64,000 nucleotides of DNA from Gemmatimonadaceae bacterium (lineage in GTDB: Bacteria > Gemmatimonadota > Gemmatimonadetes > Gemmatimonadales > Gemmatimonadaceae), in contig JADZAN010000014.1 in assembly GCA_020852815.1 (NCBI GenBank), positions 1 to 64,000 on the forward strand, in the 5' to 3' direction. Made by a program: the position numbers and the translations under genes. Shown here one piece after another: positions 429-37,892 of the stretch. A model generated the notes under the pieces. It was given only the letters and a program-made list of their open reading frames with translations, made no database searches and had not been told where the DNA came from. How positions within the stretch are numbered: the first letter of the stretch is position 1; every line of letters begins with the position of its first letter.

Positions 429-1049
429 ATGCTCGTCGCCGCCCTCACGGGGAACATTGCCAGTGGAAAGTCGACCGTCGCCGCCGAACTCGTTCGACTC
501 GGCGCCTGGCTCGTCGACGCCGATCGCCTGGCGCGGGATGTCGTCGCGCCCGGGACGCCGGGCCTGGCGGCGATCGTCGAGCGATGGGGGGACACCACGC
601 TCACCGCCGACGGCGCGCTGGACCGCGCCTCGCTGCGACGGATCGTCTTTGCCGACGAGGCGGAACGCACAGCGCTGAATGCAATCGTTCATCCGCGCGT
701 CGAGGCGCTGCGGCGTGAGCGCGTGGCGGAGGCGCAGGCGGCCGGCGCGGACGTGGTCGTGTGCGACATTCCGCTCCTCTTCGAGACCGGGCGTTACCAG
801 GACGGGACTTTCGACGCGATCATCCTCGTCATGGCGCCACACCACGTGCGCCTCGCGCGACTGCTCGATCGACGCGGACTCGCGCGCGACGAGGCCGAGC
901 GCATCATGGCCGCGCAGTGGCCAGAGGAGGCGAAGCGCGCGCACGCCGACATCGTGATCGACAACGGTGGGTCGCTCGACGCGCTGCGCGCACAGGTGGA
1001 GACGTGCTGGCACGCACTGGTCGCGCGCGCGGCGGCGAAGTCGGCGTGA
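429..1049 (+). CDS. coaE: Dephospho-CoA kinase
   Basis: Catalyses ATP-dependent phosphorylation of dephospho-CoA, the last step of CoA synthesis. The 206-residue protein starts MLVAALTGNIASGKST, where the P-loop GNIASGKS is at residues 8-15. DADRLARDVV follows, then the lid/CoA region CDIPLLFE and the conserved RLLDRRG. Length fits the family (about 200). The frame is open further upstream (from 264), but the extra residues look like noise and the P-loop would then be unusually internal, so ATG 429 is chosen. No strong Shine-Dalgarno sequence is visible. It is followed by the gcvH promoter, so it is probably not cotranscribed with gcvH. Confidence 0.93.
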   Translation: MLVAALTGNIASGKSTVAAELVRLGAWLVDADRLARDVVAPGTPGLAAIVERWGDTTLTADGALDRASLRRIVFADEAERTALNAIVHPRVEALRRERVAEAQAAGADVVVCDIPLLFETGRYQDGTFDAIILVMAPHHVRLARLLDRRGLARDEAERIMAAQWPEEAKRAHADIVIDNGGSLDALRAQVETCWHALVARAAAKSA

Positions 1050-18002: not shown

Positions 18003-19601
18003 CTACTGCGTCGCCGTCGGCTTGGGACGCGTCGAGCGGTTTCCCAGCACCACCCCCGCCTCGTACATCAACGCGCCGATGCGCGCCATCTTTGGATAGT
18101 TGATCAGCGCCGCCTCGTCCGTCACCTGGTGGTACTGCGGGTGCAGCCCGGTGGTGAAGAAGACGATCGGGATCCCCTTGCGGGCGTAGTTGAAGTGGTC
18201 GCTGCGGTAGTAGATGCGCTCCGGGTGCGTCGTCGTGTCCCACTCGCGGTTGAAGGTGAAGGGGCGCGCCTGCGCCGCGTTCACCGAGTCGATCACCGCA
18301 CCCAGCACCGAACTCTGCCCGTTCGGTGCCGCCCCGGGCCCAACGATGTACAGCGAGTCGTCGCCATTGCGCCCCACCATGTCGGCGTTGAGCTGGGCGA
18401 CGATCGAGTCGAGCGGGACGGTGGGGTTGGTCGTGAAGACGTCGGAGCCGAACAGCCCTTTCTCCTCGCCCACGTGCCACACGAAGAGCACGGAACGCTT
18501 CGGCTTGGGCCCCTGCGCGAAGGCGCGCGCCACCGACAGCTGCAACATGCTGCCGGAACCATCGTCATCGGCGCCGTTGGCGATGGAGTCGCCGTTCACC
18601 GCTGGCTGGATCCCGATGTGATCATAGTGCGCGCCGTAGGCGACGTACGTGTTCCGCAAGGCCGGGTCGGTCCCGCGCACGATCCCTACGACGTTGTAGC
18701 CGTTGAACGGCTGCGTGGTCTGCTTCACCGACGCCACCAGGCGCGTCCCTGCCGGCACCGTCGACTGCTCTGCCGACGGCCAGGCGGCGGGCACGAGCGG
18801 CGAGCCGGAGGCCAGGCGCGCCACTGCGACCATGGGCAAGGGGCGCGCCGCCCCTGCCGGCGAGGCGCCGCGCGCCAGCTCCACCGGGCTCCCCGAGAAC
18901 TGCCCCGCCGCCATCTGGAAGATCGAATCGGGAAGAAGCAGGACAATCGCCGCCGGGCCGCGACCAATGGCCGCTCCCAGCCGGCCAAAGAGCGCATCCG
19001 CGCCCTGCATCGATTTGCGCCTGGCGGAGTCGACCCCCGCTGGCACGGCCCCCGCAATCACTACCACCTTTCCCTTCACGTCGAGCCCCTTGTAGTCGTC
19101 ACGCCCCAACCCGGCATCGATGATCCCGTAGGACGCAAAGACGACATCCGCATCCACCGACAGCTTGGGGAGCGGGGCGCCCGGGCCAAGGGACGTCAGG
19201 AGCAGGAAGTCGTTGCCCAGGCGCAGCGCGCGCCGGCCACCCGGCGTGACGACGACGATCGAGTCGGCGGCCAGGGTCGACCTGCGCATCGGAACGCGCT
19301 GGAAGTAGCCGCTGTCGCCCGCCGGCTCCACGCCCAGCGCCGTCAGGCGCCGCGCAATCCATGCCGCGGCCCGATCGGCATCCGGCGTCCCCGTCTCGCG
19401 CCCGCGAAACGAGTCCGCCGAGAAGGCGAAGAGGTCCGCGCGCAATTCGTTCACGTTAGGTTCGAGGCTCGCCGGCGCCGGCGCCGCCACCACCCTGGGC
19501 GACGGCGAACACCCCGCCAGCAGCAATCCACCCATCACCGCCACCACCCCAACCGCGCCCCGCCCCGTACGCATCCGTCCCATCCGTCGCATCCTACGCA
19601 T
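18003..19601 (-). CDS. M28-family metallopeptidase lipoprotein with PA domain
   Basis: A 532-residue exported zinc peptidase. The signal ends GGLLLAGC, a lipobox, so it is membrane-anchored. Residues about 150-300 look like a PA (protease-associated) insert (YKGLDVKGKVVVIAGAVP). The catalytic part shows the M28 ligand motifs YGAHYDHIG, ADDDGSG, GEEKGLFGSD and a C-terminal YRSDHFNYARKGIP. M28 enzymes are aminopeptidases or carboxypeptidases, fitting the peptide uptake genes in the window. The start ATG at 19599-19601 has GAGGG just upstream; three further in-frame ATGs follow closely, so the exact N-terminus could be up to nine residues shorter. Confidence 0.92.
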   Translation of the reverse strand: MRRMRRMGRMRTGRGAVGVVAVMGGLLLAGCSPSPRVVAAPAPASLEPNVNELRADLFAFSADSFRGRETGTPDADRAAAWIARRLTALGVEPAGDSGYFQRVPMRRSTLAADSIVVVTPGGRRALRLGNDFLLLTSLGPGAPLPKLSVDADVVFASYGIIDAGLGRDDYKGLDVKGKVVVIAGAVPAGVDSARRKSMQGADALFGRLGAAIGRGPAAIVLLLPDSIFQMAAGQFSGSPVELARGASPAGAARPLPMVAVARLASGSPLVPAAWPSAEQSTVPAGTRLVASVKQTTQPFNGYNVVGIVRGTDPALRNTYVAYGAHYDHIGIQPAVNGDSIANGADDDGSGSMLQLSVARAFAQGPKPKRSVLFVWHVGEEKGLFGSDVFTTNPTVPLDSIVAQLNADMVGRNGDDSLYIVGPGAAPNGQSSVLGAVIDSVNAAQARPFTFNREWDTTTHPERIYYRSDHFNYARKGIPIVFFTTGLHPQYHQVTDEAALINYPKMARIGALMYEAGVVLGNRSTRPKPTATQ

Positions 19602-19843
19602 TCGCCCTCGATCGTTGATGGTGTCCGTCCCCCGCCGCACCGCCCCTCCCACGCCCCCCCGTGCCCCTCCCGCCCCCCCTCCCCCCCCGACAGCGCAACG
19701 GGCCGATCCCCAGGACCGGCCCGCAGTTTCTCGGGAATACCCCCACCCCAACCCTCCACCCCCACCTTCGCTGGGGCAGGCTTCTCGTCCCCAGCCTTCG
19801 CTGGGGCAGGCTTCTCGTCTTCCCGTCCTCTCGTCTTCTCCCC
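19602..19843. other. Gap with C-tracts, hairpin and two palindrome repeats
   Basis: This 240-bp gap between two minus-strand genes has a pyrimidine-rich tract (19625-19690) and a hairpin CGGGCCG/CGGCCCG (19699-19705 with 19717-19723), a likely terminator of the small membrane protein gene. It also has two copies of the dispersed palindrome (variant at 19759-19776, full at 19789-19806) with TCTCGTC arrays up to about 19843. No gene is supported. Confidence 0.6.
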
Positions 19844-20071
19844 CTAAACCGACGCCGCCCCCGACCACCGCTCCCGCAGCCGGCGCGCCGTGTCGGGCGA
19901 GACCACGCGAATGACGAGGTAGATGATTCCGCCGAAGATGGCGATCTTCACCGCCAGCGCGAGCAGGCCAAGCAGAAGCCCGAAGAACACGCCGAATACG
20001 CCAAAGAACAGCTTGAGCAGGAACAGCCCGCCAATGGCGAACAGCCCGATCATGAGAATGGTGCGAAGCAT
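19844..20071 (-). CDS. Small membrane protein
   Basis: A 75-residue protein, almost entirely hydrophobic: MLRTILMIGLFAIGGLFLLK, then FFGVFGVFFGLLLGLLALAVKIAIFGGIIYLVIRVV, ending in a charged tail (DTARRLRERW). Two to three membrane helices with phenylalanine and glycine spacing. ATG 20069-20071 has GGAG 9-10 nt upstream, better than the TTG five codons earlier. The function is not recognisable. Confidence 0.75.
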   Translation of the reverse strand: MLRTILMIGLFAIGGLFLLKLFFGVFGVFFGLLLGLLALAVKIAIFGGIIYLVIRVVSPDTARRLRERWSGAASV

Positions 20072-20200
20072 GGTTCCGGACTCCAATTCTAGGACTGCAC
20101 ACTGTACGCGACCGCCGCGGTCACGGTTTCACGGCGCGTGGACCCACTCCTCCATCACAACGGAGCTCCGACGTCGCTCCAATCTCGCGAGCCTCGCCGC

Positions 20201-24720: not shown

Positions 24721-26067
24721 ATGGCAACCAAGGTCTTCATGGAGGCGCTCTCCCCAACGATGGAGGAAGGGCGCCTGGTCAAGTGGCTCCGGAACGAAGG
24801 CGACGCCGTCAAGAACGGTGAGACGCTCGCCGAGGTCGAGACGGACAAGGCGATCATGGAACTCGTCGCCCGCGGCGACGGGATCCTGCGCAAGCGCCTC
24901 ATCGCCGAAGGGGCCACCACGCCCGTCGGCGCGCTGATCGGCATCATTGCAGCTGCCGACGAGAACATCGACGCCCTGCTCGGCGGCGCCCCCGCCGCGC
25001 CGGCGAGCACCGCCGCCGTTCCGGCGGCGCCCCCGGCAGCTGCACCGCCGGCCGCCGCGCCAGCCGCTCCGCCAGCCGCTCCGCCAGCTGCACCTTCCGC
25101 GGCAGCGTCGCCATCGCCGGCCCCGGCTCCGGCAGCGCCCAGCGCCGCCACTCCCATCCCCGCCGACGACGCCCGCCAGCGCTCCTCCCCCCTCGCCCGC
25201 CGCCTCGCCGCCGACCGCGGCATCGCGTTAGGCGCGGTCCACGGCTCCGGCCCCGGCGGCCGCATCATCAAGCGCGACGTCGAGGCCGCGGCAACCGGCA
25301 CGGCAACCGGCGCGCCCAGTGGCGCGTCGGCGGCGCCGTCCGCCGCTGCCGCCCCCCGCTCCCCGTCGCTCGTCCCGACCGGCGACGCGTTCCGCGACGT
25401 CGCGTTGACGCAGATCCGCAAGACGATCGCCCGCCGACTCGCCGAGTCCATCGGCCCGGTGCCGACGTTCTACCTCACCGCCGAGTTCGACATGGAACGC
25501 GTCGCCGAGATGCGCGGCGCGATGGCGGAGCTGGGCGATGGCTACAAGGTCTCCTTCAACGACATCGTCCTCAAGGCGGTCGCCACGGCGCTGGCACAAC
25601 ATCCGGAATGCAACGCCCACTGGCTCGGCGACTCCATCCGCTACTGGAATCGCGTCCACATCGGGATGGCCGTCGCCATCGACGACGGACTCATCACCCC
25701 GGTGATCTTCGACGCCCACACCAAGGGGCTGGCGCAGATCGCCGCCGAGTCGCGCGACCTCGCCAAGCGCGCCCGCGAACGAAAGCTCAAGCCCGATGAA
25801 TACAGCGGCTCGACCTTCTCCGTCTCCAACCTCGGGATGTTCGGGATCGACCAGTTCACCGCGATCATCAATCCCCCCGAAGCGGGGATCGTCGCCATCG
25901 GCGGGATCGAGTCGAAGCCGGTGGTCGTGGGCGGCGAGATCCAGGTGCGCCGACGCATGCGCGTGACGATGAGCTGCGACCACCGCGTCATCGACGGTGC
26001 CTCCGGCGCCAAGTTCCTCCAGACGCTGCGGCGCCTGATCGAGAACCCGCTCCTTCTGGTGTACTGA
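24721..26067 (+). CDS. pdhC: Pyruvate dehydrogenase E2 component (dihydrolipoamide acetyltransferase)
   Basis: Core of the PDH complex (448 residues). One N-terminal lipoyl domain has the modified Lys43 in [10 protein letters not shown]. An Ala/Pro-rich linker (about residues 95-140) follows. Then comes a peripheral-subunit binding domain ([20 protein letters not shown]...[12 protein letters not shown], about 158-185), a second Ala/Pro linker and the catalytic domain, ending with the HxxxDG site in [16 protein letters not shown]. Only one lipoyl domain is present. The lpd gene (30013) is separated from the operon by the large metzincin gene. Confidence 0.95.
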
Positions 26068-26160
26068 TCCGGAGTGTTCCCCCGTGATCGGTGAGTCCGG
26101 CGCGCGCTTCGCCCCGCACATGCGCCGCCACCCGCCGGCGCATGTGCGGCCATGCCTAAC

Positions 26161-26176: not shown

Positions 26177-26187
26177 TTCGTCAGCGG

Positions 26188-26193
26188 TATAAT
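26188..26193 (+). promoter_or_regulatory. Consensus -10 box before metzincin gene
   Basis: TATAAT at 26188-26193, the only perfect -10 hexamer I noted. Predicted start near 26200, about 19 nt before a strong hairpin. No -35; the position is occupied by the CRP-type site. Confidence 0.6.
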
Positions 26194-26218
26194 GGATGAG
26201 CACGTTGCACGACGGCAC

Positions 26219-26268
26219 GCGCATGCGTCCTTGAGGGAGACGTTTCCCCCAAGGACGCATGCGCTTTT
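26219..26268 (+). terminator. Strong hairpin with T-run in leader (attenuator or sRNA terminator)
   Basis: GCGCATGCGTCCTT (26219-26232) pairs perfectly with AAGGACGCATGCGC (26251-26264), the stem extends inward (GGGA with TCCC), and TTTT follows at once. A transcript from 26200 would end here after about 65-70 nt unless read through. The ATG at 26259 lies inside the right arm, so it would be sequestered. Confidence 0.65.
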
Positions 26269-29200
26269 CGACCGCCCATCCCGTGGCGCCCCCGACGTGC
26301 GGAACGCCCTCCGCCGCGCCAACGGCGCCCGTGAGTCCCGACGCACTCCGCCACACCGCACACGTCGCCCGGCGCACGCGCCTGGCTCGTTCGCTTGCAG
26401 CTGCCGCCCTCACGCTCGGCGCCCTCGCGGCGACGGCGTGCGGGACGAGTGAAGGGGGAAACGCCACCGGATCGAACGGCCCCGACACGCCGAAGACCGG
26501 CGCGCTCACCGTCACCGTCGCCGGCGTTCCCGCCGGCTCGAGCGCGGCCATTCAGCTCACCGGCAGCGCGGGCTACGCGCGCACCATCAGCGCCACCGAG
26601 ACCGTGAGCGCCCTCGCCCCCGGCGCCTATGAGCTGTCCGCCAGCGACGTCACGGCTGGTGCCGACCGTTACGGCGCCACCCCGCGCACGCAAGGCGTGA
26701 CGATCACTGCCGGCGCGAGCGCCTCGGCCACCGTGGGATACGGAATCCTCACCGGGTCGTTGGCGATCACCGCCAGCGGACTCCCCACGGGGAGCACGAC
26801 GAATGTGCAGGTGACGGGGCCCGACAGCTTCGCGCGAACTGTCACGGCCGGGACGACGCTGGGTGGCCTCGCCCCCGGCGCGTATCGCGTCACCGCCGCG
26901 TCGGTCACCGTCGAGAGCCACACCTACACGCCGCAAGCAGCCACGCTGGATGTTGCCGTGGCAGCGTCCACGACGCCGGTCCCCGTCGCGGTCGCGTACC
27001 AGATCGCCTCGGGGGCGCTGATCGTCGGGGTAACCGGGCTCCCCGGCGGCGCCACCGCGCAGGCCGTGGTCACCGGCCCAGGCGGCTTCCAGAAGACCGT
27101 CGCCTCCGGCGAGCTCCTCTCGAATCTCGTTCCGGGACCGTATCTCATCACCGCCGCGCCCGTGACGGTGGGTATCGACGGCTATCGCGTGTCCGCCCCG
27201 GTCTCGGTGGCGATCGTCGCCTCCACGACCCCCGTGAGCGTTCCCGTCGCCTACGCGCTCGCCACCGGCCGACTGGCCCTCGCGGTTGGCGGGCTCCCTG
27301 CCGGCGCTGCGGCAGCGGTCACCGTCACCGGCCCGGGCGGCTTTTCCACGGGCATCACGGCCACCGACACGCTCGTCGCCCTTGCACCTGGCGACTACAC
27401 CATCGCCGCCACGCCGGTGGCCACCGCCACGCTCACCTACGGCCCCACGCCGGCCACGCAGGTCATCGCCGTCACCGCGGGGACCACGCCGGTTGCCGGA
27501 TCGGTCGACTACGCCGTCACGACGGGGAGCCTGCTCGTTACCATCACCGGGTTGCCGCAAGCCCTGGCCGCGAGCGTCACCGTCACCGGACCCGCCAACT
27601 ACTCGCAGCAGGTCGCCAACACCTCGACGCTCAGCAACCTCGCCCCCGGCACCTACACACTCACGGCAGCCAACGCCACCACCGGGTCGCACACCTACGC
27701 GCCGTCGCCTGCCTCTCGCAGCGTCACCGTCGTGGCTGGGCCGTCACCTGCAACAGCGGTCTTTGCCTACGCGCTCTCCACCGGGGGGATCCAGTTCGCC
27801 GTCAACGGCCTGGCGGGCAATGTCCCGGCCGACATCACGATCACCGGGCCGGGCGGCTACTCGCGGAACGTCACCGCGTCGCAGTTGCTCCTCGGCCTCA
27901 CCGCGGGGATGTACACCATCACCGCGCGCAATGTCGCCAGCGGCGCCAACGCCTGGGCCCCCAACCCGGCATCACAGAACGTCGCGGTCCCGGCGTCCAC
28001 CTTCACCGTCGATGCGGCGGTCACCTACGTGACCGCGATCGGGGCGCTCACCGTCACGGTGAACGGCCTCCCGGGCGGCGTGAACGCCGCCGTCACCGTC
28101 ACGGGCGCCGGCGGCTACTCGCGCGCCGTGACGGCCACCACGACGATCACCGGCCTCGCCCAGGGGATCTACACCGTCAAGGCGAGCAGCGTGAGCAACG
28201 CCGGCACCACCTACACGCCCACTCCCGCCACGGGGAACGTTTCCGTCGGCGGCGGCGTGACGTCGACGGCAACGGTGTCGTACTCCGCATCGGCCCCGCC
28301 GCCACCGTCGTCGCTCAACCTGGTCATCGATGGGATGCACGTGCAGCAAGTCGTGCAGACCTACGGCGGCACGGTGCCACTCGTCGCCGGGCGCGACGGA
28401 CTGCTGCGCGTCTTCGTGAAGGCCAACATGGCCAACACCGCCACACCCACGGTGCGCGTCCGCCTCTACAGCGGCGCAACGCTCGCCAGCACCGTGAGTA
28501 TTCCCGCGCCGGGCACTTCCGTTCCGCAGACCATCACCGAGGGGACGCTGGCCTCGTCGTGGAACACCACGATCCCCGCCGCCCTCATGCAGAACGGGCT
28601 CAAGATCCTGGCCGACGTCGACCCGACCAACACCGTCACCGAGTCGTCCGACAGCGACAACAGCTATCCCGTCTCGGGAACCGCCGGCTCGATGGACGTG
28701 CGCAATGTCAGCACGCTCAGCGTGCGCCTGGTCCCCGTGCTGCAGAGCGCCAACGGCTTGCAGGGGAATGTCACGGCGGGCAATGCGACCCAGTTCACCG
28801 CCGACATCCTCAAGCTGTACCCGCTCACCCAGGTCGACGCCGAGGTGCGCGCACCCTACACAACGGCAGCGCCCGCGCTCCAGAGCGGCGATAACAACGG
28901 GGCCTGGCTCCAGATCCTGAGCGAGGTGAATGCACTCCGCACGGCCGACGCGAGTTCGCGCTACTACTACGGCGTCGTGAAGACGAGCTACGGGAGCGGC
29001 ATCGCCGGCCTCGGCTACGTGCCTGGACGTGCGGCGATCGGGTGGGACCACCTGCCGTCAGGCGCAAACGTGATGGCGCACGAAGTGGGGCACAACCTCG
29101 GGCGCTTCCACGCGCCAGGGTGCGGCGCGGGAGGGCCGGATCCCTCATATCCCAAGGCGACCGGGAGGCTCGAAGGCTACGGCTACAACATCGCCACCAA

Positions 29201-29909
29201 TGCGCTCAAGGACACGGCCGTCACCTACGATCTGATGAGCTACTGCAGTCCGGTATGGATCAGCGCCTACACATACTCGGCGATACTCTCCTATCGCGCC
29301 GCAAACCCATTCGTCGCCGCCGCGTCGGCAGTCGCGGGCTCGTACTCGCAGCGCGGGCTCCTGGTCTGGGGACGCATCCAGAACGGGCAGGTGATCCTCG
29401 AACCGACGTACGAGGTCGATGCGCCACCCTCGCTCCCGACCAAGGGCGGACGCAATCGCCTGCAGGGCTTCGGGCCGCTGGGCCAGCCCCTCTTCGACTT
29501 CACCTTTGATGGCGATCAGGTCGCCGATCACCCCGCGGGGAGCGCCGAACACTTCGCCTTCATCGTCCCGATGGGGATGATGGGGGGAACGTCGCCGACA
29601 CGCGTGCGCGCCAGCGCCGGCGCACGGCAGGCCGAGTATCTCTCGATCGCGTCCACCCCCGCGTCGGCGGCGGCGCCCGTGGTGCAACGCCTCAACTCGC
29701 GAGCCGTCCGCCTGCGGTGGAACGGCGCCGAGGCGAGAGGCGTGCTGGTGCGCCACCCGCGCACCGGGGAGATCCTCGCCTTCGCGCGCGGCGGCGACGC
29801 CGTGGTGTACACGGCGGAAGGGTCGCTCGACCTCACGCTTTCCGATGGGGTGCGCAGCGCCCGTCAGCGCGTGACTGTCGGGGCGCCCGGGGCGACGCCG
29901 CAACGCTAG
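26259..29909 (+). CDS. Giant repeat-containing metzincin-type metalloprotease lipoprotein
   Basis: Up to 1216 residues, probably exported. A signal-like stretch ARSLAAAALTLGALAATAC ends at a possible lipobox cysteine (about residue 66). Seven repeats of about 83 residues follow (each like GALTVTVNGLPGG...VTGPGGYSR...LAPGTYTITA...YTPTPATQ). A CARDB-like segment (VPLVAGRDGLLRVFVKA) comes next, then a zinc protease domain with HEVGHNLGRFH at residues 941-951 and a Met-turn LMSYC (M993). This HExxHxxGxxH plus Met-turn pattern defines metzincins. A C-terminal domain of about 200 residues is unassigned. ATG 26259 is buried in a hairpin; GTG 26331 is an alternative start. It lies between pdhC and lpd with its own promoter. 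Likely role: cell-surface degradation of protein, inferred. Confidence 0.85.
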   Translation: MRFSTAHPVAPPTCGTPSAAPTAPVSPDALRHTAHVARRTRLARSLAAAALTLGALAATACGTSEGGNATGSNGPDTPKTGALTVTVAGVPAGSSAAIQLTGSAGYARTISATETVSALAPGAYELSASDVTAGADRYGATPRTQGVTITAGASASATVGYGILTGSLAITASGLPTGSTTNVQVTGPDSFARTVTAGTTLGGLAPGAYRVTAASVTVESHTYTPQAATLDVAVAASTTPVPVAVAYQIASGALIVGVTGLPGGATAQAVVTGPGGFQKTVASGELLSNLVPGPYLITAAPVTVGIDGYRVSAPVSVAIVASTTPVSVPVAYALATGRLALAVGGLPAGAAAAVTVTGPGGFSTGITATDTLVALAPGDYTIAATPVATATLTYGPTPATQVIAVTAGTTPVAGSVDYAVTTGSLLVTITGLPQALAASVTVTGPANYSQQVANTSTLSNLAPGTYTLTAANATTGSHTYAPSPASRSVTVVAGPSPATAVFAYALSTGGIQFAVNGLAGNVPADITITGPGGYSRNVTASQLLLGLTAGMYTITARNVASGANAWAPNPASQNVAVPASTFTVDAAVTYVTAIGALTVTVNGLPGGVNAAVTVTGAGGYSRAVTATTTITGLAQGIYTVKASSVSNAGTTYTPTPATGNVSVGGGVTSTATVSYSASAPPPPSSLNLVIDGMHVQQVVQTYGGTVPLVAGRDGLLRVFVKANMANTATPTVRVRLYSGATLASTVSIPAPGTSVPQTITEGTLASSWNTTIPAALMQNGLKILADVDPTNTVTESSDSDNSYPVSGTAGSMDVRNVSTLSVRLVPVLQSANGLQGNVTAGNATQFTADILKLYPLTQVDAEVRAPYTTAAPALQSGDNNGAWLQILSEVNALRTADASSRYYYGVVKTSYGSGIAGLGYVPGRAAIGWDHLPSGANVMAHEVGHNLGRFHAPGCGAGGPDPSYPKATGRLEGYGYNIATNALKDTAVTYDLMSYCSPVWISAYTYSAILSYRAANPFVAAASAVAGSYSQRGLLVWGRIQNGQVILEPTYEVDAPPSLPTKGGRNRLQGFGPLGQPLFDFTFDGDQVADHPAGSAEHFAFIVPMGMMGGTSPTRVRASAGARQAEYLSIASTPASAAAPVVQRLNSRAVRLRWNGAEARGVLVRHPRTGEILAFARGGDAVVYTAEGSLDLTLSDGVRSARQRVTVGAPGATPQR

Positions 29910-29947: not shown

Positions 29948-30012
29948 AGGGGTCGTCTCGCGCGCGGTTGCCGGAACGCCGGTGCGCGCCCTCACGCCAA
30001 CACCGACTCGTC

Positions 30013-31437
30013 ATGGCCTCGTACGACGTCATCTTCCTCGGCGGCGGCCCCGCCGGATATGTCGGCGCCATCCGCTGCGCCCAACTCGGACTCTCCACCG
30101 CCGTCGTCGAGCGCGAAGGGCTCGGCGGTACCTGCGTGCTCTGGGGATGCATCCCGGCCAAGGCGCTGCTGGAGAGCGCATCGCTCGCCAACAAGGTGCG
30201 GCATGCCGACGACTTCGGGGTGAAGATCGGCGGGGAGATCGGGTTCGACTACAACGTGGCGATGAAGCGTTCGCGCGGCGTGTCGAACCAGAACTCGAAG
30301 GGGGTCGAGTTCCTCTTCAAGAAGAACAAGGTCACCTGGATCAAGGGGACGGGAAAGATCGTGAAGGCGAGCGCCGGCGCCGCCGCCACGCTCAGCGTGA
30401 AGGGTGCCGACGGCAAGGAAGAGAAGCACGACGCGAAGAAGGCGCTGGTCGTCGCGACCGGCTCGCGCGTGCGCGGCCTTCCGCAGATCGGGCTCGAACT
30501 CAACAAGTCGACCGTCATCTCCTCCGACGAGGCACTGACGCTGGAGCGCGCGCCGAAGTCGATCGCCATCGTCGGCGCCGGCGCCATTGGCTGCGAGTTT
30601 GCCGACGTCTTCAACGCCTTCGGCAGCGACGTGCACCTCCTCGAGGCGCTCCCCGCGATCCTCCCCCTCGAGGACGCCGACTGCAGCGCCGAGCTGCAGC
30701 GCGCCTTCAAGAAGCGGAAGATCAACGTCACCACCGGCGCGAAGATCTCCAACGTGAAGGTCGGAAAGTCGAGCGTGTCGTTGTCGGTCGAGGCTAGCGG
30801 TGCAAAGCAGGACCTCACCGTCGACCAGGTGCTGGTTGCCGCCGGGCGCGCACCGAATGTGGAGGACATCGGGCTCAAGGAACTCGGTGTGCAGCTGACG
30901 GATCGCGGCTTCATCAAGGTCGACACCACGACCTACCAGACGTCGGTGAAGGGGATCTACGCCATCGGCGACGTGATCGGCGCCCCGATGCTCGCCCACA
31001 AGGGATCGCGCGAGGGGCACATCCTGGCCGAGCTCCTCGCCGGGCAGCACGCGCACGCGCTCAATTACGGCAACATCCCCAACGCCACCTACTGCCATCC
31101 GGAAGTCGCCTCCATCGGACTCACGGAGCAGCAGTGCAAGGACAAGAAGCTCGAGTACAAGGTCGGCAAGTTCCCCTTCTCTGCGAACGGGCGCGCGCGC
31201 ACGTCCGGCGAGACCGAGGGCTTCGTGAAGATCATCCGCGACGCCAAGTACGGGGAGATCCTCGGCGCGCACATCGTCGGCGCGCATGCCACGGAGATGA
31301 TCCACGAGCTGGCTGTGGCCCGGGAGAACGAGTTCACCGTCGAGGAGATCGACCTGGCCATCCACGCCCACCCAACGCTGTCGGAGGCGGTGGCCGAGGC
31401 CGCGCTCGATTCGTTAGGCAAGATGATACATGCGTAG
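30013..31437 (+). CDS. lpd: Dihydrolipoamide dehydrogenase (E3)
   Basis: FAD enzyme that reoxidises lipoamide of PDH, other 2-oxo acid complexes and GcvH using NAD+. The 474 residues contain the FAD motif GGGPAGYVGAI, redox-active Cys41 and Cys46 in GGTCVLWGCIPAK, the NAD motif IVGAGAIGCEFADVF, the second FAD motif GIYAIGDVIG and the C-terminal active-site HAHPTLSEA. ATG 30013 gives MASYDVIFLGG; an extra 15 codons upstream are not family-like. A very strong terminator hairpin follows directly. Confidence 0.97.
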   Translation: MASYDVIFLGGGPAGYVGAIRCAQLGLSTAVVEREGLGGTCVLWGCIPAKALLESASLANKVRHADDFGVKIGGEIGFDYNVAMKRSRGVSNQNSKGVEFLFKKNKVTWIKGTGKIVKASAGAAATLSVKGADGKEEKHDAKKALVVATGSRVRGLPQIGLELNKSTVISSDEALTLERAPKSIAIVGAGAIGCEFADVFNAFGSDVHLLEALPAILPLEDADCSAELQRAFKKRKINVTTGAKISNVKVGKSSVSLSVEASGAKQDLTVDQVLVAAGRAPNVEDIGLKELGVQLTDRGFIKVDTTTYQTSVKGIYAIGDVIGAPMLAHKGSREGHILAELLAGQHAHALNYGNIPNATYCHPEVASIGLTEQQCKDKKLEYKVGKFPFSANGRARTSGETEGFVKIIRDAKYGEILGAHIVGAHATEMIHELAVARENEFTVEEIDLAIHAHPTLSEAVAEAALDSLGKMIHA

Positions 31438-34454: not shown

Positions 34455-37400
34455 TTACGGCATCACCTGCACCTGCGTGACGATCGCATCGCCATTCGAC
34501 AGAACGCCGACCGCGATGAAGGTATCGCCCGTGGCGGCAGCCGTCTGGATGGCCGTCGTGTTCCAGGCGTTGACGAACGAGGCGTTCGGCAGCGCGTAGA
34601 TCCACGAGCGGTACGTGCCCTGGTCGCTGCCGATAGCCGAGCTGCTGCTGCCGACATAGTTCCACCAGGTGCCGCCCGCGTCGAGACGGTAGAAGTCAAC
34701 GCGCGTGAACGGCGGGTTCGGTGCATTGGTCGGCGAGGCAACCTGCGCGCGAAGCGGGGTTGTCGAGCCGAACCAATCGGTCGTCGCCAGCGACGGGATC
34801 AGGCGGAAATGGTTCACCGCGATCGTCGGGTTGGCAACGTTCCAAGCCTGGACGCCCGCGCCATTCTGGACGTTCAGCGCCGGGATCGGGATGACCGGCG
34901 AGGTCGACGGAGCCGGGAAGCCGACGCCGTTGCCCTTGGTGCTACCGACGTTCCACGACCAGACGGTCGCCGAAGTCGGCTTGGCCGTGCCAGCCGCGTA
35001 GGCCTGGACGTTGACCGCCGGGAAGACCGACGCATCCGTCGACTCGATGCCGCGAGCGTACACGGCGCCGTGCGTCGGCGAGATGGTCACAGCCAGCGGC
35101 GACGAGATGACGTCGTCGAAGGCGGTGCCAACGGACCCACGCGCATAGCGGAGGGCCGTAACCGTCGGAACGGCCGGGTAGGTCAGTTCGAGCGACTGGG
35201 CGATGACTTCGGCCGAGTCGGCGTGCGTCGCATTGAAGACGAACGTCGAGCCGGTGAGCGTCGCCGGGACGCCGAGGCCCGTCGAGAACGGCGAGGCAGC
35301 GTTCACAAGCGTGCGGCGGAAGATCGTCGACGAAGTGTTACCGGCGGCGTCCATGACCCACGTCTTGTAGCCGTAGTAGCCTTCCGGCTGCGGAACGTCG
35401 ACGCGCTGACCAGCCTTCCAACCGTCGACACGGACACCCGCGACCGCCAGCGTGATGCGCGTGAAGCCGCACTGCGGGTCGGTGACGAAGGTGGCGCCAG
35501 GCGTGGAGCCTGCCGAAGCGACCGAGCAGAGACCGGTCGGGTTCAGGTGACCAGCGGTCGAGAGGTGGTGCGACTGCGCCGCGACGTTGTTGACCGCGTC
35601 GTAGTCACCGGCGTTGTAGAAGCCGGCGCGATCGTCGAGGTACTCAGCGCGGAACTCGTTGGTGCCGGCAACCGGCTTCACCGTGTAGACGGTGTCGACC
35701 GGATCCGTCGCCGTGCCGCCGTAAGCGACCGGGAGACCGGCGCCCACGATGCCCCAGCGGATGTTCGGGTTGGTGTAGTCCGTGCCGAACGTCTGCGTGG
35801 CCGACGAGACGCCACGGTTGTCGAGGCGATCCGACTCCGAGCCCTTCACGGTCCACGGAGCGGTGCCACCGAGGCCAGGCGTGCCGCCGATGAAGTTCGT
35901 CGGGCAGGCAACGGCCCCGTTGATGTCGGCGCCCGTGCCGGTCGCCATCGCGACGTCAGTCGCGGTCACGCCCGAGCAGTTCACCGAGGTGTACGAGGTC
36001 GCACGGTCGCGGGTGGCGCGGAGGCCAACGCCGTTATCGGCCGAGGCGAAGTTGATGAAGCTGAACGCACCGTTCACCCAGCCCGTCACCGCCGGCAGCG
36101 TACGCGTGATCGACGGCGTGTTGACCGACGGCGCGCGGTAGTCGAGGCGGAGCGAGTCCGGCGTCGCGTTGAAGACCACCGTGTTGGCGATCAGCGGCGT
36201 CGTGGCGAACGTGTTGTTCGTGTTGTCCTGCGCGGAGGCGACCACGACGTTGTCGCGGGTGCCGCCGTTGTTCTCGTACGAGGTGCAGGCTTCCTGCGCG
36301 CCGTTGGCCGTGTAGCCGAACGAGCGCGTGCGGCCCTGCTGCGTGCGACCACCGTTCGACGCCGCGAGGACGCCGGTCGTGTCGAGCGAGCAGCCGCCCA
36401 GGGTCCAGATCGCGTTCGAGACGCTACGGCCCGGGGTGTAGATGACCGGGTACACCGTGGCCGACGCGTTGGCGGTCGGGCCACCCCAGTACGTGATGTT
36501 CGCAGCCGAAACCGCGTTCACCGACGGCTTCGTGATGTCGGCCGACCACCCGTCGACGTTGTTCAGGACGATCGCGACCGGCGAGGCGCAGGTCGGGTCC
36601 GACGGGTTGTTCGTGCAGTTGGCCGCCGTCGAGCCCGTGGCACCCTTCGGGTACACCTGGGCCGACACCGTGCTCGGGCCATTGAGGAGGTCAACCGTCA
36701 CCGACGGAGCGGCGGCGTCCTTCACGAAGTTCGCGGTGTTGACCGAGAGCGTGAGGATGCCGGCGGCCGGGATGGCGCCACCGAAGTTCTGCTTCGCAAC
36801 ACGACGGAGGCCGTCGGGCTGGTTCATGCGAACGACGACCGAGTCAATCGGCAGGCCGCTCGGCTGGAAGTTCAGGTTGATTTCGATCTGGCCGTTCACG
36901 TTGTTGACCGGCACCGGGGTGTTCGTGGCGCCGTACGTGATCGAGTTGATCGAGACCTGCGGGGTGAGGACGTTGACCGCGACCGTCGCCTGGAGCGAGT
37001 TGGTCGACAGGCCGGCGCCCGAGCCCGTGGCGGTGATCGTCACGACGCAAGCACCCGAAGCGACGGCGGTGATCGTCGTCGCGCCCGAGGTGGCGTTGGT
37101 CGAGGCGGTGGCGATGCCGGGGCAGCCCGAGGCGGCCGTGGCAGCGTTGTTCGAGTAGGCAACCGTGGCGCCCGACGCCGTCGTCACCGTCGTGGTGACC
37201 GTCTGCGCGGAGCCCGGGCCGAGGGTGATGACCGTCGGGGTGACCGTCAGCGTGTTGAGGGCCGCCGGCTGCGCCGAGACCGTCACGGCAAGCGCGCCCG
37301 ACTTCGTCGCGTCAGCCGTCGAGGTCGCGGTGATGACCGCCGTACCCACGGCAACCGCCGTGATCTTGCCCGTGGCGTCGACCGTCGCAATGGCTTCGGC

Positions 37401-37892
37401 GCTCGACTTCCACGTCACCGTCGAGGCGGCGCCCGCGTCACGGTTGACCGTGGCGACAGCCGTCGCGGACTCACCAACCTTCAGCGCGAGCGCGGTCGGC
37501 TGGACCGTCACGCTCGTCACCTGCGGGGCGCGAACCGTCACGGCCGCGGCACCACGCTTGGTGTTGTCAGCCGTCGACGTCGCAACGATCGTCGTCGTGC
37601 CAGCCGCAACGCCCGTCACTTCGCCCGCCGCACTGACCGTCGCAATCGTCGACGAGTTCGTCGACCACGTGACCGTCGTCGCCGGCGCGCCGGTGCCCTG
37701 GCTGACCGTGACCGAAGCCGACAGGATGACCTTCTCGCCAACGGCGATGGTCACCTGGGCCGGCGTCACGTTCACGCCCGTCACAATCGCCGGCAGCGGC
37801 TCCTGCGGCGGCGTGACCGATACGTCGTCTCCGCAAGCGGCGAGTCCGAGGACCGCGCCGACCGCAAATAACGACCGAGTGAATTTCTGCAT
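34455..37892 (-). CDS. Large lipoprotein with bacterial Ig-like (Big_2) domains
   Basis: An 1145-residue cell-surface lipoprotein: MQKFTRSLFAVGAVLGLAAC, Cys20 in the lipobox. Two clear Big_2-type domains (about residues 35-120 and 121-205) share VTPAQVTIAVGEKV/VQPTALALKVGES, VTWS..IATV and GTTTIVATSTAD. A third, more diverged one follows (about 210-310). The remaining 800 residues are beta-rich with Asn/Thr-rich stretches and no recognisable catalytic site. This resembles adhesin-like or structural surface proteins. AAGGGGG precedes ATG 37892 by 7 nt. It has a long structured leader upstream and an intrinsic terminator downstream. Its codon use is visibly less GC-extreme than neighbours (many GTCGG, ACCGTC blocks with A/T), but no transfer signs are seen. 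Confidence 0.85.
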   Translation of the reverse strand: MQKFTRSLFAVGAVLGLAACGDDVSVTPPQEPLPAIVTGVNVTPAQVTIAVGEKVILSASVTVSQGTGAPATTVTWSTNSSTIATVSAAGEVTGVAAGTTTIVATSTADNTKRGAAAVTVRAPQVTSVTVQPTALALKVGESATAVATVNRDAGAASTVTWKSSAEAIATVDATGKITAVAVGTAVITATSTADATKSGALAVTVSAQPAALNTLTVTPTVITLGPGSAQTVTTTVTTASGATVAYSNNAATAASGCPGIATASTNATSGATTITAVASGACVVTITATGSGAGLSTNSLQATVAVNVLTPQVSINSITYGATNTPVPVNNVNGQIEINLNFQPSGLPIDSVVVRMNQPDGLRRVAKQNFGGAIPAAGILTLSVNTANFVKDAAAPSVTVDLLNGPSTVSAQVYPKGATGSTAANCTNNPSDPTCASPVAIVLNNVDGWSADITKPSVNAVSAANITYWGGPTANASATVYPVIYTPGRSVSNAIWTLGGCSLDTTGVLAASNGGRTQQGRTRSFGYTANGAQEACTSYENNGGTRDNVVVASAQDNTNNTFATTPLIANTVVFNATPDSLRLDYRAPSVNTPSITRTLPAVTGWVNGAFSFINFASADNGVGLRATRDRATSYTSVNCSGVTATDVAMATGTGADINGAVACPTNFIGGTPGLGGTAPWTVKGSESDRLDNRGVSSATQTFGTDYTNPNIRWGIVGAGLPVAYGGTATDPVDTVYTVKPVAGTNEFRAEYLDDRAGFYNAGDYDAVNNVAAQSHHLSTAGHLNPTGLCSVASAGSTPGATFVTDPQCGFTRITLAVAGVRVDGWKAGQRVDVPQPEGYYGYKTWVMDAAGNTSSTIFRRTLVNAASPFSTGLGVPATLTGSTFVFNATHADSAEVIAQSLELTYPAVPTVTALRYARGSVGTAFDDVISSPLAVTISPTHGAVYARGIESTDASVFPAVNVQAYAAGTAKPTSATVWSWNVGSTKGNGVGFPAPSTSPVIPIPALNVQNGAGVQAWNVANPTIAVNHFRLIPSLATTDWFGSTTPLRAQVASPTNAPNPPFTRVDFYRLDAGGTWWNYVGSSSSAIGSDQGTYRSWIYALPNASFVNAWNTTAIQTAAATGDTFIAVGVLSNGDAIVTQVQVMP

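Follow-up and report, generated by a model that had tools for sequence, protein, structure and literature searches.

A family of predicted stalked metzincin lipoproteins in Gemmatimonadota, with a member set between pyruvate dehydrogenase genes

The open reading frame (ORF) between the pyruvate dehydrogenase (PDH) E2 and lpd genes in the 64,000-nucleotide stretch of DNA analysed here (the window) is a real ORF for a predicted envelope lipoprotein, in which a lipobox is followed by seven beta repeats, a CARDB-like domain, a metzincin-type zinc protease domain and an all-beta C-terminal region (Table 1). We consider that the product is probably a lipid-anchored cell-envelope endoprotease, carried on a stalk and acting on extracellular or periplasmic protein. 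The protease belongs to a multi-copy family that extends across the phylum. Every part of the protein comes from a known fold class; the family itself and its lasting position within the PDH operon seem to be undescribed.

Table 1. Features of the protease gene and its surroundings (positions in the window; residues counted from ATG 26259)
Feature	Residues	Positions	Strand	Basis
PDH E2 (pdhC, dihydrolipoamide acyltransferase), upstream neighbour		24721..26067	+	
Hairpin with perfect 15-bp outer stem, then CUUUU; spans ATG 26259; may be a terminator or leader structure		26219..26264	+	sequence
Protease ORF	1216 aa	26259..29909	+	no internal stop codons
Predicted lipoprotein signal peptide, counted from the GTG candidate start and ending in the lipobox LAATA-C61		26331..26441	+	sequence
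Seven CnaB/prealbumin-like repeats	81-679	26499..28295	+	repeat analysis and predicted structure
Repeat borders	81-165, 166-251, 252-336, 337-422, 423-508, 509-594, 595-679			
CARDB-like domain	about 688-804	28320..28670	+	Foldseek and Pfam
Metzincin catalytic domain, adamalysin-like	about 813-1026	28695..29336	+	structure alignment of model
Zinc-binding motif HEVGHNLGRFH	941-951	29079..29111	+	sequence
Met-turn LMSYC	992-996	29232..29246	+	sequence
C-terminal all-beta region	about 1031-1216	29349..29906	+	predicted secondary structure
Dihydrolipoamide dehydrogenase lpd (E3), downstream neighbour		29968..31437	+	

By its relatives, the genome of this soil-type bacterium belongs to Gemmatimonadaceae. 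The ORF is not a chance frame, because its protein sequence is conserved across dozens of genomes. The first-pass annotation had proposed a 1216-residue lipoprotein, and a frame of that length is present; the start, however, may be later than annotated. A hairpin encloses the ATG at 26259, and in-frame GTG codons at 26283 and 26331 offer alternative starts; therefore, the true start may be downstream of the ATG (GTG 26331 or 26283) and the protein slightly shorter than 1216 residues. The proposed lipoprotein anchor was recovered by inspection as the lipobox LAATAC, which follows a hydrophobic stretch and has its Cys at residue 61, and lipobox-like motifs occur in many other family members as well. 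An antisense ORF of 503 codons (26181-27692, minus strand) overlaps the protease gene and is probably an artefact of high G+C content.

The assignment of the protein to the metzincin-type zinc proteases, which the first-pass annotation had made from the zinc motif and Met-turn, holds for both motifs and is joined by an ADAM8-like predicted fold. In an alignment of 34 members (A4, which covers repeat 7 and the CARDB-like, catalytic and C-terminal parts), the H, E, H and H of the zinc motif are invariant, as are the Met and Cys of the Met-turn. This Cys (Cys996) probably pairs with Cys955, which follows the zinc motif. The model of the catalytic domain aligns with ADAM8 (4dd8) with a VIA-align Z of 15.9 over 174 residues (rmsd 3.1), and the next best structure matches are snake venom metalloproteinases. 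As modelled, the domain is metzincin-type and of the adamalysin-like fold class, resembling ADAM8 and snake venom adamalysin II at Z 15-16 over about 170 residues and sharing with adamalysins the HExxHxxGxxH motif, the Met-turn, a Cys past the zinc motif and another in the Met-turn. In adamalysins, an Asp directly follows the third zinc His (HExxHxxGxxHD), but the corresponding residue is Ala in the window protein, and almost every aligned member has Ala or Ser there; we therefore do not claim membership of the adamalysin family. Moreover, the window protein differs from adamalysins in its low identity (11-20%) and in being a bacterial lipoprotein with a CnaB-like stalk, in which neither a disintegrin nor an ADAM-type prodomain was seen. 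That no prodomain was identified speaks against the endoprotease reading. In three divergent relatives (L018, L040 and L042) the Gly of HExxHxxGxxH is replaced by Asn or Ser, with all zinc ligands kept.

The possibility that the protein is a catalytically dead adhesin, which the frequent occurrence of CnaB-like and CARDB modules in adhesins might suggest, is very remote, as HExxH, the third His and the Met-turn are kept throughout the family. The idea of a pseudoenzyme was rejected on the same grounds.

No Pfam or NCBIfam model scores above its cut-off on the window protein. The Pfam Reprolysin model gives 16.6 bits versus 22.4 and Peptidase_M66 gives 9.7 bits versus 20.6, while some relatives pass (L019 with 33.6 versus 27 for Reprolysin; L012, L017 and L019 with 21.6, 23.3 and 24.4 for Peptidase_M66). 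Peptidase_M66 matches are found in 31 of the 34 members at E up to 0.1, the best at 3.4e-7. A sequence search of the PDB returned only weak matches to the zinc motif and to CARDB. Thus, the earlier description of an undescribed protease stands only to the extent that the searched libraries contain no curated family for the protein and that no paper on the family or its PDH linkage was found in the open-access literature; it does not extend to the catalytic fold class, which is known.

The first-pass annotation had also described seven novel-looking repeats of 83 residues. There are indeed seven, with a period of 85-86 residues rather than 83 and a mean pairwise identity of 41%, and they lie outside any Pfam model at its cut-off; the idea of a new fold, in contrast, was rejected on matches of the predicted structure to CnaB/prealbumin-like domains. 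The AlphaFold model of repeats 5-6 (mean pLDDT 97) is a beta-sandwich that matches TIE (6fwv) at Z 10.6 with an rmsd of 10.2 across two modules, CnaB2 (8bdw) at Z 8.6 with an rmsd of 3.7 across 82 residues, and also pilins and the transthyretin-like domain of carboxypeptidase D. The modelled repeats adopt a CnaB/prealbumin-like fold; a Z near 8 is modest, yet most of the matches listed belong to that fold class. In their predicted beta-sandwich and tandem, stalk-like arrangement the repeats resemble CnaB2 of L. plantarum, TIE of B. anthracis and GBS52. Unlike CnaB pilins, however, the window protein has no match to Pfam CnaB/SpaA, and because there are 2 Lys among the 599 repeat residues, Lys-Asn/Asp isopeptide bonds of the CnaB type are excluded for most repeats on sequence grounds. 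No PEGA or PKD match, which would have made the repeats a known type, was listed when the window protein was searched with E values as high as 10, and neither was among the 25 families shown for A5. When repeats were compared between seven-repeat orthologues, 175 of 294 best matches fell at the corresponding position (1/7 expected by chance). Judged from these comparisons, the repeats are positionally orthologous and the array appears old, without re-expansion.

The CARDB-like segment noted in the first pass was found again by structure and, below the cut-off, by sequence. It matches a solved CARDB domain (PF1109, 3idu_B) with a Foldseek probability of 1.00 and a TM score of 0.57 by target length, and shares with it the fold, a weak Pfam score and a DVDP...ESxxxDN ending, but the Pfam CARDB model gives 14.0 bits on the window protein versus a cut-off of 22.7. 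With an E threshold of 0.1, Pfam CARDB is recognised in 26 of the 34 members, the lowest E being 3.2e-6. Mean pLDDT is 91 for the AlphaFold model that covers the C-terminal half.

Matches to A4 occur in 150 of the 298 Gemmatimonadota genomes sampled, often several per genome, while in the genome of the window the protein has no second copy, counting close matches. The family is also present in two Holophagaceae MAGs, with genomes outside Gemmatimonadota thinly sampled. No relatives were found in viral contigs, and a phage origin is without support from that scan. Members carry from 1 to 9 repeats, and in one relative (L020) Big_2 and PPC domains stand in place of the repeats; the N-terminal stalk is thus, from the sequences, apparently exchangeable, and the C-terminal half conserved.

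The variable stalk bears on whether the protein is instead a glycoprotein-directed protease like StcE or CpaA, in which the beta modules recognise substrate glycans rather than acting as a plain spacer. StcE/TagA (Peptidase_M66) and CpaA are, like the window protein, bacterial exported metzincins with weak profile similarity at the zinc motif, and the Peptidase_M66 matches, above the cut-off in some relatives, together with an E value of 0.0012 for the CpaA model (NF033511, NCBIfam) favour this reading. In addition, CpaA resembles the window protein in carrying tandem beta repeats ahead of a C-terminal metzincin domain, and the CpaA repeats help to form the substrate cleft (PMC7542363). Nevertheless, the window protein scores far below the cut-off for CpaA (17.2 bits versus 750), the M66 and CpaA matches are limited to the region of the zinc motif, and a stalk whose repeats number anywhere from 1 to 9, or give way to Big_2/PPC domains in one relative, is easier to reconcile with a spacer than with a substrate cleft. 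The window protein also differs from StcE/TagA and CpaA in scoring below the M66 cut-off, in having a lipobox where they have plain export, and in the type of its repeats. CpaA and StcE are absent among the structure matches listed, an absence that is no evidence against kinship. On balance, we consider a glycoprotease improbable and favour the general endoprotease on a spacer.

As the first-pass annotation had pointed out, the gene is inserted among PDH genes: upstream lie lipA and the genes for PDH E1 alpha, E1 beta and E2, and downstream lie lpd and a lipoyl ligase/transferase gene. The order in carriers is lipA-E1a-E1b-E2-protease-lpd-lplA, while E2 and lpd are back to back in many relatives without the protease gene. 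A family copy adjoins lpd in 25 of the 37 family-bearing Gemmatimonadaceae genomes, representing 6 genera; linkage was counted from lpd only, and sampling is uneven, with 15 of the 25 genomes from genus g23. The adjoining copy is on the E2 side in 24 of the 25 and just downstream of lpd in the remaining one (G002). Further linked cases are G010 and G029, two copies are found on the E2 side in G026, G202, G260, G024, G094 and G198, and in G001 lpd is flanked by a copy on either side. The copy just downstream of lpd in the same-genus relatives G001 and G002 is a distinct one (L021 4100-6589 and L015 1477-4113). Outside this setting, the protease lies between class-V aminotransferase and SDR genes in two other Gemmatimonadota genomes (L026 and L029), a second conserved setting. 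Since unlinked copies adjoin unrelated genes, the protease does not need PDH alongside.

On a maximum-likelihood tree the linked copies cluster, with 2 changes of the label 'PDH-linked' compared to 12.2 in shuffles. This clustering and the positional orthology of the repeats support one or two ancient insertions between E2 and lpd, after which the gene would have been inherited vertically. The site itself may be permissive. The E2-lpd gap is widened to 1.1-6.4 kb without a family member in G005, G016 and G018 (L045 4907-6615, L051 5316-6433 and L053 5438-11809), the gap in G005 containing an open frame of 532 aa that has membrane segments and zinc-ribbon-like ones, and G017 (L052) lacks an E2 within 6.8 kb upstream of lpd; these cases suggest a recurrent insertion site.

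Transcription across the insertion may also be interrupted. Two strong perfect hairpins (26114-26149 and 26219-26264) lie between E2 and the protease gene, the second of which was not reported by a terminator scan. A TATAAT sequence lies between them; one run of a sigma-70 promoter scan reported no promoter, this sequence included. Because the E2-protease spacing in the window is 191-263 nt and holds two strong hairpins, one of them terminator-like, co-transcription of E2 and protease is doubtful here. No Rfam families or tRNAs were found in the window at default thresholds.

Thus, the PDH linkage could be a neutral historical insertion into a tolerant gap, a reading that is compatible with the endoprotease and to which we give an even chance. 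One or two origins with vertical descent explain the pattern, the gap is widened without any family member in G005, G016 and G018 and E2 is absent from the 6.8 kb upstream of lpd in G017, and the intergenic hairpins could uncouple transcription. Against neutrality, the gene order has lasted through 6 genera, although the protease itself has diverged to an identity of about 50%; tandem duplicates remain at the site; and in G029 (L016) about 30 nt or less separate the E2 stop from the start of the protease. A functional explanation strikes us as unlikely: that the protease is kept in the PDH operon because proteolysis outside the cell is regulated jointly with pyruvate oxidation, turning on the uptake of protein-derived carbon and its entry into the TCA cycle at the same time.

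The gene neighbourhoods also bear on the substrate. A lipid anchor that holds the protease at the cell, the ADAM-like fold, and CARDB and beta modules that suggest protein contacts would all suit a protease that processes the cell's own surface proteins, by maturation or shedding, rather than foreign protein. We nonetheless hold this to be of low probability: there is no conserved partner gene, PDH-linked and unlinked copies differ in their neighbours, and the distribution is multi-copy and patchy even within Gemmatimonadaceae. Nearby in the window are genes for an M28 peptidase, a POT-family peptide transporter, the glycine dehydrogenase GcvP and a DAO-type oxidase, which fit peptide use, although as ordinary genes they are weak evidence. 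The M28 peptidase gene (18003-20102, minus strand) is near the PDH genes, and L064 likewise has, upstream of lipA, a stretch with 69% identity to it. Farther along the window, two long ORFs overlap on opposite strands, of which the minus-strand frame (34455-37892) encodes Big_2 domains and the plus-strand frame (34809-37871) has a 41% match in L024.

The likeliest role of the protein is that of a surface-tethered endoprotease for scavenging extracellular protein. The lipid on Cys61 would anchor it, most likely in the outer membrane, and the seven CnaB/prealbumin-like modules would form an extended spacer of fixed length that presents the CARDB-like domain and the adamalysin-type zinc metzincin to protein substrates outside the cell or in the periplasm. 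The gene would have moved into the PDH operon of Gemmatimonadaceae, in the gap from E2 to lpd, on one or two occasions and been passed down there since, with local tandem duplication. The substrate, the activity and any tie to PDH are our reading of domain content and gene order.

Gemmatimonadota are a common, poorly studied phylum with six cultured species (PMC10581226). The family described here adds to the phylum an uncurated, phylum-wide set of stalked metzincin lipoproteins, and it provides a case of an envelope enzyme unusually stably inserted in a core metabolic operon, a link that is unexplained. Should that link prove functional, the breakdown of protein outside the cell would be tied to the pyruvate node.
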